A stretch of 32,593 bases of DNA from Candidatus Wildermuthbacteria bacterium RIFOXYD1_FULL_50_12 (GTDB lineage Bacteria; Patescibacteriota; Minisyncoccia; Minisyncoccales; UBA10102), in contig MHUO01000004.1 of the NCBI GenBank assembly GCA_001825035.1, positions 7,160 through 39,752 of the forward strand. The letters run 5' to 3'. Position 1 is the stretch's first letter. Each line of letters begins with the position of its first letter. The notes under the pieces are model-generated. The model was not told the DNA's origin. It did no database searches and saw nothing but the letters and a program-made list of their open reading frames with translations. Positions 27,478-31,852 of the stretch are shown here, piece by piece. Position numbers and translations under genes: made by a program.

Positions 27478-28086
27478 TCATGAAAGGGTTCCTTTGGTAC
27501 TTGGCACTTGGCCAGCGGCGTGGGAATCTGGTTCGTGGGCTTCCCGCAGGGCTCGCGCTAAAGCCTTGAACACTGCTTCGGCCTTATGGTGCGGGTTCTT
27601 GCCATACAGGACCTTGGCGTGGAGAGTGATTCGGGCCTCAGTCGCGAAGGTTTCTAGGAAGTGCCGAACAAGATCTCCTGGCAGAACGCCCTCTAGCATA
27701 ACGTCGGGATCAATAGAGGTATCAACCACAGCGTAGGGACGGCCGCTGCAATCCACCACCACTCGGGCCAAAGTTTCGTCCAGGGGAGCATGTTTATCTC
27801 CCATGCGGCGGATGCCTCGCCCCTCGCCGCGAGCCTGTAAGAAGGCTCTTCCCAGTACAATGGCCGTGTCCTCAGTGACGTGGTGCCAGCTTATATGGAT
27901 GTCGCCGCGAGGGATTCCCACGGTGATATCGAACATCCCATGACGAGCCAATTGCGCCAGCAGGTGGTCCGAGAATCCGTTGCCGGTGGAGCCAGAGAAA
28001 TTGCCCTGTCCGTCAAGGTTGACGGTTACGGCAATTTTCGTTTCATTCGTTTCGCGCTCCACCGAGGCGAAGCGCTTCTCTTCCAT
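27478..28086 (-). CDS. hisB: Imidazoleglycerol-phosphate dehydratase, solitary
   Basis: ASVERETNETKIAVTVNLDG, TGNGFSDHLLAQLARHGMFDI, SWHHVTEDTAIVLGRAF, GIRRMGDKHAPLDETLARVVVDCSGRPYAV, GKNPHHKAEAVFKALARALREA; SD GAGGAGG. Confidence 0.93.
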   Translation of the reverse strand: MEEKRFASVERETNETKIAVTVNLDGQGNFSGSTGNGFSDHLLAQLARHGMFDITVGIPRGDIHISWHHVTEDTAIVLGRAFLQARGEGRGIRRMGDKHAPLDETLARVVVDCSGRPYAVVDTSIDPDVMLEGVLPGDLVRHFLETFATEARITLHAKVLYGKNPHHKAEAVFKALARALREAHEPDSHAAGQVPSTKGTLS

Positions 28087-28190: not shown

Positions 28191-29060
28191 ATGCCAATTC
28201 AAAAAAGCATTTTTGATTTTGAACCAGTTCAGACGTTCCTCAAAGTTCTCGGGAAAGATATTGAGCAATATTTTGGCGCGGAAAAGGGCGCCCTTGTCTA
28301 CCTGAAACCCGACGGCGTGTGGTACGCAGAGGCCTTGTATCAGTGGCTCAAAGGAAAAAAGAAGGACATCACCATCAGCTCAATGGAGGATGACGGAACG
28401 GACTTGGAAGAAGGGAAGGTGCGGGATAGGAAGGTACTCATTGTTGTCAATGAGAGCTTCACCGGGAAGGCGCATAAGCGCTCTACCGAAGCGATGCGCG
28501 CGCGCAAGGGACATTTGAACATCAAAGCCATCAAATTTGCTGCGTACCGGGATCGACCGGGAACTGCGGATTTTGCCGTGGATCAGTATTCTGCAGAAAT
28601 GATTTGGCGCAAAGGAGACATAGACGCTCTGGATTTAAAAATCATTAAGCTTTTGGAACAAGATGGAAGATCTTCCCTTTCTTCTATTGCGGGAAAGACC
28701 AATTTAAGCTCTGTGGCGGTTAAAAATAGAGTGGAGCGCCTTCTGGGCAGGAAAATCTTGAAAGTGCAAGGCGCCCTGAACATGGATCGTTTCTACAGCT
28801 TTGTCGCACATCTTCATATAGAGGCAGACGACGAGGCCATTCACAATCTTATTGAACGGCTCGAGAAGTTCCAAGAAGTGTATCAGATGGTCCGCATGGT
28901 AGGCGGCGTGAAATTGTTAGTGTGCATACTCGTCCAGAATTTAGAAAACGTTGATGAGTTTATTGAGAGGGAAATCCGGCCGGTGTCCAGGGTTAAAGAT
29001 ATCAGGGTGGAGATCGGGGAGCTTCCTGTGTTGCCAAAGACATTTGCGCCCAAGATTTGA
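28191..29060 (+). CDS. Putative PRTase-like domain fused to Lrp/AsnC-type HTH + ligand-binding domain
   Basis: N-terminal half (ALVYLKPDGVWYAEALYQWLKG...DRKVLIVVNESFTGKAHKRSTEAMRARK) resembles a degenerate type I PRTase; C-terminal half IDALDLKIIKLLEQDGRSSLSSIAGKTNLSSVAVKNRVERLLGRKILKVQGALNM + FVAHLHIEADDEA... is Lrp/AsnC-like. Confidence 0.7.
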   Translation: MPIQKSIFDFEPVQTFLKVLGKDIEQYFGAEKGALVYLKPDGVWYAEALYQWLKGKKKDITISSMEDDGTDLEEGKVRDRKVLIVVNESFTGKAHKRSTEAMRARKGHLNIKAIKFAAYRDRPGTADFAVDQYSAEMIWRKGDIDALDLKIIKLLEQDGRSSLSSIAGKTNLSSVAVKNRVERLLGRKILKVQGALNMDRFYSFVAHLHIEADDEAIHNLIERLEKFQEVYQMVRMVGGVKLLVCILVQNLENVDEFIEREIRPVSRVKDIRVEIGELPVLPKTFAPKI

Positions 29061-29822: not shown

Positions 29823-29866
29823 GCGCGCGAAAGTACGTTGCTTTTCTGTACGGGTTGTAGTAGCAT

Positions 29867-29893
29867 CCAAGGGCTTATTCCCCTTGGTTTTTT
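29867..29893 (+). terminator. Intrinsic terminator of greA
   Basis: CCAAGGG-cttattc-CCCTTGG followed by TTTTTT. Confidence 0.85.
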
Positions 29894-29901
29894 AACGGCG
29901 T

Positions 29902-30468
29902 ATGGCATTGAAGGTAGGAATTATAGGGCCGACAAACATGCGCAAGCTCGTCAAGCTGACCGGGAAGTCGGAGCAGTTTTTTCTTAAAAAAGCGGATACC
30001 GTGGGGAAAATGCTTGCTGCTCACAGATGTGAGCTCTGGGTAAACAGTGATGGAGGGATGATTAGGGAGGTAGCTGTCGCCTATAAGAATGCGGGAGGAG
30101 GCCGACTTGTGATGCTCTATCCTAAGAAGGGGGAGCCGTGGCCGAATAAACATGTGAAGTCCCACACAAGGATAGCAAATAAGCTGAACAGGCAGCAAAA
30201 CTGGTTCTGGACGAATTATCAGGTTGTCTCCATCCCAGAGCTTGTCGTATGTGTAGGACTGAGCGCCGGCACCCTCAGCGAGTTGGCGTATATTAAGTGG
30301 AATCGCCAGTTTAAGCGGGGCAACCTCAAACGACTAATCGTTCTTCAGGAATTGGTGCGAGGCAAAAGGATCCCGCCGGAAATCGAAGTTGAAATAAAGG
30401 GGATTCTTGTGTATCTTAAAAAAACCGAAGAGCTTAAGCGCATCATTTCGCAATACCTTAAAAATTAA
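29902..30468 (+). CDS. LOG/SLOG-like Rossmann-fold nucleotide-binding protein, paralog A
   Basis: VGIIGPTNMRKLVK, ELWVNSDGGMIREVAVAYKNAGG, PELVVCVGLSAGTLSELAYIKWN (LOG-type GxxGTxxE-like motif); clear paralog of 31215-31808. Confidence 0.65.
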   Translation: MALKVGIIGPTNMRKLVKLTGKSEQFFLKKADTVGKMLAAHRCELWVNSDGGMIREVAVAYKNAGGGRLVMLYPKKGEPWPNKHVKSHTRIANKLNRQQNWFWTNYQVVSIPELVVCVGLSAGTLSELAYIKWNRQFKRGNLKRLIVLQELVRGKRIPPEIEVEIKGILVYLKKTEELKRIISQYLKN

Positions 30469-30477
30469 CAGCGTTTT

Positions 30478-31161
30478 ATGTATTCTTTCCTCCAGTTTCT
30501 CAAAACAATCAGGCAGTTGAAAGACATTAAGCGGCAAGGCATTCTTTACTATGGCGTCAAAGAAAAAGACGTGGATAGCGCAGTTGATCACAGCTTTCGC
30601 CTTGCTGTCATGATTTGGCTCTTGGGACAGGGGAAGAAGATGAATTTAGCTAAGGCAATGAAATTGGCTCTTGTGCACGATCTCTGCAAGGTGTACACGG
30701 GGGACATTACCCCCTACCAGGGGCTGTTTCCGAAGAAAGATAAAGGATTTCGTCTCGCATGGCGATGGAGGCGTCTCTCTCTCAAGGAGAAAGAGAAACG
30801 GCACAAAGAAAAGTTTCAAAAAGAGCAGGCCGCAATGAAAAAACTTACCGCTAACCTCCCTCCCGCTATGCAGGGGGACATCATGAATGTGTGGGCTGAC
30901 TATCAAAAGATGGAAAGCCCGGAAGCGAAATTTGTTCTGCAAGTTGACAGAATTGAAAATCTTTTGGAAGCATTAGAGTGTTTTGAAAACGATCCCAATT
31001 TCCCGACACAGCCCTGGTGGGAACACGCCGATGAAGTTGTTGCTGATAAAGAGCTTCTTTCCCTGATAGATGAGATTTCCAGCGAAGAGGAGCGGATTTC
31101 GAATAAAAGACGGAAGGGGAAAGGGGAAACATCAAAAATAAGAAAAAAGAAATTAGCATAG
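30478..31161 (+). CDS. HD-domain hydrolase (YfbR/HDDC2-like 5'-nucleotidase type)
   Basis: KDVDSAVDHSFRLAVMIWLL, MKLALVHDLCKVYTGDITPYQGL (H...HD...), VLQVDRIENLLEALECFE. Confidence 0.85.
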   Translation: MYSFLQFLKTIRQLKDIKRQGILYYGVKEKDVDSAVDHSFRLAVMIWLLGQGKKMNLAKAMKLALVHDLCKVYTGDITPYQGLFPKKDKGFRLAWRWRRLSLKEKEKRHKEKFQKEQAAMKKLTANLPPAMQGDIMNVWADYQKMESPEAKFVLQVDRIENLLEALECFENDPNFPTQPWWEHADEVVADKELLSLIDEISSEEERISNKRRKGKGETSKIRKKKLA

Positions 31162-31214
31162 TTCTTTCATGCCTAAGGCGATGACTTGACTCTCGTTCGA
31201 AAGGAGGTAAGAGC

Positions 31215-31808
31215 ATGAGAGTCGGCATCATCGGACCTACCGACGTAGCCCAGCTGGCGCAGTTCCTCAATCGTCCCCAGGAATTCTTGCTTGAGCGCGG
31301 AAAACTTGTGGGACGCATCCTTGCGGAGACCGACAAGGAGCTTTGGGTGAACGCGGACGGCGGCATGCTGTACGCGGTAGCCCAAGGATATAAGGACGCT
31401 GGTGGCAAGAAGCTCGTTATGCTCTTGCCGTTGCATGGCGATCCTTGGCCCATTGAGCACGCTCGTCCATATACCGTGCTAGCGGACGAGGTGAGACGTC
31501 CGGCAAATTGGCTCCGGGCGAATCTGGAAGTGGTTTCTCTTCCCGAGCTCGTTGTGTGCGTGGGACTGAGCGCCGGTACGTATTCTGAGCTCTCCTACAT
31601 CCGTTGGAATATTGAGCATTCCGGGAACGGAAAGGAGAGCAACCACCGCCCGCGGCCTTTGGTAGCAATCCGCGAGTTCATTCGGGGCGGAGAGGTCCCG
31701 CCGGAGTTCAAGCAAGTGCTTGCGCCGGTTCTTCGATACATCCCTGTGGTGGAAGGCCTCAGAGAAGTTCTCGAAGCTCTCCAAAATGGCACACCGTCGC
31801 CGTTGTAA
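31215..31808 (+). CDS. LOG/SLOG-like Rossmann-fold nucleotide-binding protein, paralog B
   Basis: MRVGIIGPTDVAQLAQ, ELWVNADGGMLYAVAQGYKDAGG, PELVVCVGLSAGTYSELSYIRWN; strong SD AAAGGAGG upstream. Confidence 0.68.
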   Translation: MRVGIIGPTDVAQLAQFLNRPQEFLLERGKLVGRILAETDKELWVNADGGMLYAVAQGYKDAGGKKLVMLLPLHGDPWPIEHARPYTVLADEVRRPANWLRANLEVVSLPELVVCVGLSAGTYSELSYIRWNIEHSGNGKESNHRPRPLVAIREFIRGGEVPPEFKQVLAPVLRYIPVVEGLREVLEALQNGTPSPL

Positions 31809-31809
31809 A

Positions 31810-31852
31810 GCCGCCTTCTTCCGTTTCAAGATGAGGAAGGCGGCCTTCTTTT
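31810..31852 (+). terminator. Intrinsic terminator after paralog B
   Basis: GCCGCCTTC...GAAGGCGGC 9-bp stem followed by CTTCTTTT. Confidence 0.75.

Follow-up and report, generated by a model that had tools for sequence, protein, structure and literature searches.

The genomes of Patescibacteria are very small, and these bacteria probably depend on nucleotides that they acquire. Not many of the enzymes with which they handle nucleotides are known to have been characterised. In the window analysed here, a 32,593-nucleotide stretch of contig MHUO01000004.1 from Candidatus Wildermuthbacteria bacterium RIFOXYD1_FULL_50_12, an HD-domain gene lies between two related genes of SLOG proteins. The question is whether these neighbours make one functional unit and, if so, on what chemistry.

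Gene organisation of the locus

The first-pass annotation had described two related paralogs flanking an HD gene on the same strand, bounded by terminators. The open reading frames confirm the coordinates and strand of the three genes, and the features of the locus are as follows.

29860..29896, + strand: terminator-like hairpin with a T6 tract, between a GreA-like gene and gene A
29902..30468, + strand: SLOG paralog A (188 aa), LDcluster4 subfamily, with GLSAGTLSE replacing PGGxGTxxE
30478..31161, + strand: HD_3 phosphohydrolase (227 aa), HDxxK variant, with active-site residues R19, H38, H67, D68, K71, D76, W97-R98-R99 and D157
31199..31207, + strand: Shine-Dalgarno sequence of B, GAAAGGAGG, kept in most B-type genes
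31215..31808, + strand: SLOG paralog B (197 aa), a probable duplicate of A, found only in the window's family
31810..31852, + strand: terminator hairpin 3′ of B

A and B are clearly paralogs, with 44% identity over 187 aa (E 2e-60). Both bounding hairpins fold as well, the upstream one at 29867-29887 with −10.4 kcal/mol (z −1.9), ahead of T6, and the downstream one at about 31810-31844 with −22.2 kcal/mol (z −3.3). In all three genes dN is low against a near-saturated dS, so they appear to be under purifying selection.

The upstream hairpin with its T6 tract lies 8 nt 5′ of the A start codon and is preceded by a −10-like box, TAGCAT. Hairpins also lie directly 5′ of A in G751, G748 and G753 and 5′ of HD in G755. 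The −10-like box directly 5′ of the hairpin is TATAAT in G751 and TATAGT in G755, and is weaker in G000 and G748. The hairpin and the box may be a terminator that overlaps the promoter of the module, or an attenuator. Rfam gave a single sub-threshold sRNA match at the hairpin, which we take as chance. The Shine-Dalgarno sequence of B (AAAGGAGG) is conserved across most genomes, and none is obvious at A or HD in the window.

The SLOG-HD pair is conserved within one order

An SLOG profile was searched against 247 genomes of the same order and found a clear member in 14 of them, with two further marginal matches. Single-protein searches of the class and the phylum missed most relatives, which the order-level profile recovered. 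The SLOG gene adjoins an intact HD gene of the lysine-bearing type (K-type, see below) in 12 of the 14 genomes. In the 13th (G710), the HD gene after A is internally deleted and its C-terminal end survives in another frame, and G556 has A alone without a K-type HD.

SLOG and K-type HD thus occur together in 12/14 versus 0/233 genomes (Fisher p 1e-18, with related genomes not being independent). The layout is A-HD-B in four genomes (G000, G748, G751 and G753, G748 being a Wildermuthbacteria contig), A-HD in five (G575, G574, G607, G706 and G766) and HD-B in three (G757, G756 and G755). The core unit is one SLOG with HD, of which the arrangement with both paralogs is just one variant. The conservation of the neighbourhood, put forward earlier as a check, holds for the SLOG-HD linkage, including one deleted HD copy; both paralogs are present in the four A-HD-B genomes.

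A and HD are separated by about 2–30 nt, or they overlap. The pair is found in at least four unrelated gene contexts. Since the neighbours outside the window's family are different (G575, G574, G706 and G710), the linkage is not merely synteny. Beyond the order, the sampled 354 genomes of the class and 380 of the phylum gave distant SLOG relatives only.

The two-to-three-gene module is real, conserved, built from known parts and apparently undescribed, and it carries a specific and unusual change in an active site. The literature searched, with few subscription journals and without the main SLOG survey, contained no description of it. An origin from phages or plasmids was considered and rejected, as tblastn gave no matches in phage records with B or in plasmid records with A, and viral contigs had none. 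A defence system was likewise dropped, PADLOC giving no match up to E 1.

Both SLOG proteins lack the LOG catalytic residues

A matches Pfam LDcluster4 (SLOG cluster 4, PF18306) above the cut-off (E 2.7e-7), and B falls just below it (E 1.5e-5). A PDB sequence search with the SLOG profile returned chance matches only, so fold comparison was required. In the PDB, the AlphaFold model of A, at pLDDT 90, has its best matches in the Moco carrier proteins, followed by DprA and the LOGs. The Rossmann-like SLOG fold suggested earlier is thus borne out for A by profile and model and for B by its 44% identity to A.

The catalytic pair of LOG enzymes consists of an Arg, Arg155 in CgLOGII, and the Glu of PGGxGTxxE, and the Moco carriers, being without these, are excluded from LOG (PMC5379747). 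We aligned 18 A/B-type SLOGs with RoMCP and with true LOGs, among them that of the window genome itself. The catalytic Arg column, as placed by sequence alignment and not by superposition, is non-Arg in 18/18 SLOGs, mostly Thr, Ala or Ser. The window genome encodes a separate true LOG, which keeps FFIRK at this column.

PGG is missing in all 18 too, and GLS(A/S)GTxSE or a close variant stands instead of PGGxGTxxE. The SLOGs share the fold and the catalytic Glu (E127) with the LOG phosphoribohydrolases (PF03641), and nearly all of them also share the GT. The proposal that A or B is a LOG-type hydrolase is not supported, since no member has the catalytic Arg or the PGG. A and B are identical in state at the LOG positions and neither is distinguished there from the other. 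The proposed split into an enzyme and a sensor has no ground in the sequences, because both lack the catalytic Arg.

The conserved SLOG residues include several Trp, His84, Asn105 and Glu127. These proteins resemble the binding SLOGs of the Moco carrier type. The carriers CrMCP and RoMCP are the closest folds of A, also lack the LOG PGG and have a similar GxxxGTLSE loop. A nevertheless differs from them by an identity of just 15–18%, by its conserved pocket and by a genome without MoeA.

In a tree in which most branches are not starred, B groups with the HD-B genomes of the window's family, and the B group has the upstream SLOG of G766 close to it. Because of this clustering, B suits a lineage-specific duplicate of A that would have arisen within or near the window's family.

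A lysine replaces the metal-B glutamate in the linked HD proteins

The HD protein belongs to Pfam HD_3 (E 1.6e-30) and is YfbR-like (E 3e-10). Its closest solved relatives in sequence and fold are the HDDC2/YGK1/YfbR 5′-deoxynucleotidases, human HDDC2 being the nearest. PHROGs gave a weak match to a dATP triphosphohydrolase family and nothing else. The predicted model is of low confidence around residues 18-33 and 77-95. HD_3 genes are common, with matches in 137/247 genomes of the order.

Key residues were compared between 11 SLOG-linked HDs and 68 intact HD domains without the linkage. Four residues beyond the His of the HD pair, at position 71, Lys stands in 11/11 linked HDs, whereas the unlinked ones have Glu (63), Ala (4) or Arg (1) and never Lys. 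The truncated HD of G607 also carries Lys there. Position 98 is Arg in all 11 linked versus 0/68 unlinked HDs, and position 22 is Val or Ile in 11/11 versus 3/68, the unlinked ones having mostly Trp. This Trp may correspond to W19 of YfbR, the ribose gate.

The linked HDs retain the metal A ligands H38, H67, D68 and D157, the phosphate-binding R19 and also D76. The ligands, the Arg and the Asp77 equivalent are common to the window HD and the HDDC2/YGK1/YfbR enzymes. The differences are the invariant Lys for the metal-B Glu, the lost Trp22, the gained R98 and the pairing with SLOG.

The replaced residue corresponds to the metal-B or catalytic Glu, E72 of YfbR and E70 of DatZ. This Glu is a metal B ligand in DatZ and HDDC2 and strictly conserved among the compared HD phosphohydrolase structures, and exchanging it for Ala abolished activity (PMC8065100). 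The first-pass assignment to YfbR-type dNMP phosphatases therefore stands for the family but not for the plain form of the enzyme, as an invariant Lys replaces the essential Glu.

The position has also been equated with the HDxxK lysine of the HD-GYP phosphodiesterases and YfbR E72 (PMC3774798). The multinuclear HD phosphodiesterases carry the motif H...HD...H...HH...D with extra His ligands (PMC8177086). The linked HDs share the Lys with the HD-GYP enzymes, but have no conserved extra His between the HD and the last Asp and no GYP motif. HDxxK by itself does not make a diesterase here, because these extra His ligands are absent.

In this order, HD_3 proteins often come as HD-HD tandems or fusions with a length of about 440 aa (L085, L084, L091 and L093-L104), and one of the domains has often lost active-site residues. 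In a separate HD_3 clade of the window's family (L106, L109, L117 and L122), residue 71 is Ala or Arg and the phosphate Arg is replaced by Gln; the genomes of this clade gave no SLOG match.

Origin of the pairing

The SLOG-linked HDs form one clade with support of 100/99. The closest non-Lys HDs, from G555, G641 and G715, lie in the same locus, where the SLOG gene is absent. This locus is arranged as GreA-HD...PolX-NUDIX-rplT-infC. All three genomes have the GreA-like gene with HD, two have PolX and NUDIX, and one has rplT and infC.

With the nearest non-Lys HDs in the same locus without SLOG, the residue change tracks the SLOG linkage. Most simply, a resident HD gene would first have lost the Trp and later acquired Lys71 and Arg98 alongside the linkage. 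Since K71 and the linkage have one origin each, their association makes a strong signature but amounts to a single evolutionary observation. For annotation, the signature of the pair is HDxxK and WRR beside GLSxGTxSE.

A possible two-part unit and its alternatives

The linkage, the co-inheritance and the paired active-site changes point to a nucleotide-handling pair, which agrees with the nucleotide-related theme first assigned to the module. The favoured reading, plausible if not quite probable, is that SLOG and HD are a two-part unit in which a nucleotide-binding SLOG serves a one-metal HD phosphohydrolase acting on a substrate other than a dNMP.

The SLOG would be a non-hydrolytic binding protein with a predicted Trp-rich pocket of W80, W101 and W133 with H84, N105 and E127. 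Its ligand would be nucleotide-like, either substrate or product of the HD or else a signal that acts allosterically. The HD would hold metal A by H38/H67/D68/D157 and contact the phosphate by R19. K71 may substitute for the metal-B glutamate as an acid or a charge, with R98 added, and the enzyme would remove phosphate from something other than the usual dNMP. In contact with it, the SLOG would either gate the HD as an allosteric partner or feed it as a substrate presenter.

A fuller version, possible but doubtful, is that of an SLOG-gated HD phosphohydrolase peculiar to a single order of Patescibacteria. An old resident HD nucleotidase would have gained an SLOG, exchanged Glu for Lys and taken up a novel nucleotide-like substrate or signal. 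The module would be a clean and testable example of how the chemistry or the substrate of an enzyme family shifts along with its binding partner. The residue switched here is catalytic and otherwise kept in bacteria and humans alike.

The same two proteins can be read in other ways. They could be a carrier or storage pair, the SLOGs holding a labile cofactor-like phosphate compound that HD trims or releases. The Moco carriers are the best structural matches of A, the RoMCP loop GIGLGTLSE is close to GLSAGTLSE and these carriers are reported without the LOG Arg, but the low identity to them and the lack of MoeA in a 98.8%-complete genome make this unlikely. Moco itself is unlikely as the literal ligand, and a literal Moco carrier was set aside, since MoeA is absent. 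Nucleotide salvage or sanitisation, by A or B as a LOG-type phosphoribohydrolase and HD as a YfbR/HDDC2-type dNMP phosphatase, is distinctly unlikely. The SLOG fold, the HD_3 family, the retained E127 and GT, and a PRTase-AsnC-like gene upstream in G000, G748 and G751 speak for it, whereas the loss of the catalytic Arg and PGG in 18/18 SLOGs, K71 in place of the essential Glu and the separate true LOG speak against it.

Sensory SLOG domains are known from bacterial systems such as Thoeris and, with HDxxK being the HD-GYP motif, would fit a second-messenger circuit in which the SLOGs sense a nucleotide signal and HD degrades it. However, the extra His ligands of a two-metal diesterase site are absent, PADLOC has no match and neither a DisA-type c-di-AMP synthase nor a RelA/SpoT synthetase domain was found in the genome, so such a circuit is very unlikely. 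A ppGpp or c-di-AMP circuit was rejected on the missing RelA/SpoT synthetase and DAC domains. HD as a regulatory pseudo-enzyme, its catalysis abolished by K71 and the SLOGs acting as ligand sensors, would accord with the death of YfbR upon losing the equivalent Glu and with the frequent degenerate domain in the HD-HD tandems. This is highly improbable, for the linked HDs, unlike degenerate domains, all conserve the metal A ligands, R19 and D76, and their K71 and R98 are fixed and not drifting.

Neighbouring and distantly related genes

Directly upstream of the GreA-like gene, positions 28191-29060 of the window encode a fusion of an apparently PRTase-like N-terminus (VLIVVNESFTGKA) to an AsnC/Lrp regulator, with homologues at the same place in L013 and L014. 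An imidazoleglycerol-phosphate dehydratase gene lies at 27478-28086, in a genome of 677 kb.

The distant SLOG relatives L049 (G431) and L052 (G066) share GxSxGxxxE and LPxE motifs. They sit in another conserved cluster, with a Flavoprotein-Aldolase_II fusion, methyltransferases and a pyridine nucleotide-disulphide oxidoreductase. In G710, less than 1 kb from A and the deleted HD, an LDcluster4 SLOG is fused to an alpha/beta hydrolase (L036 7987-9312).
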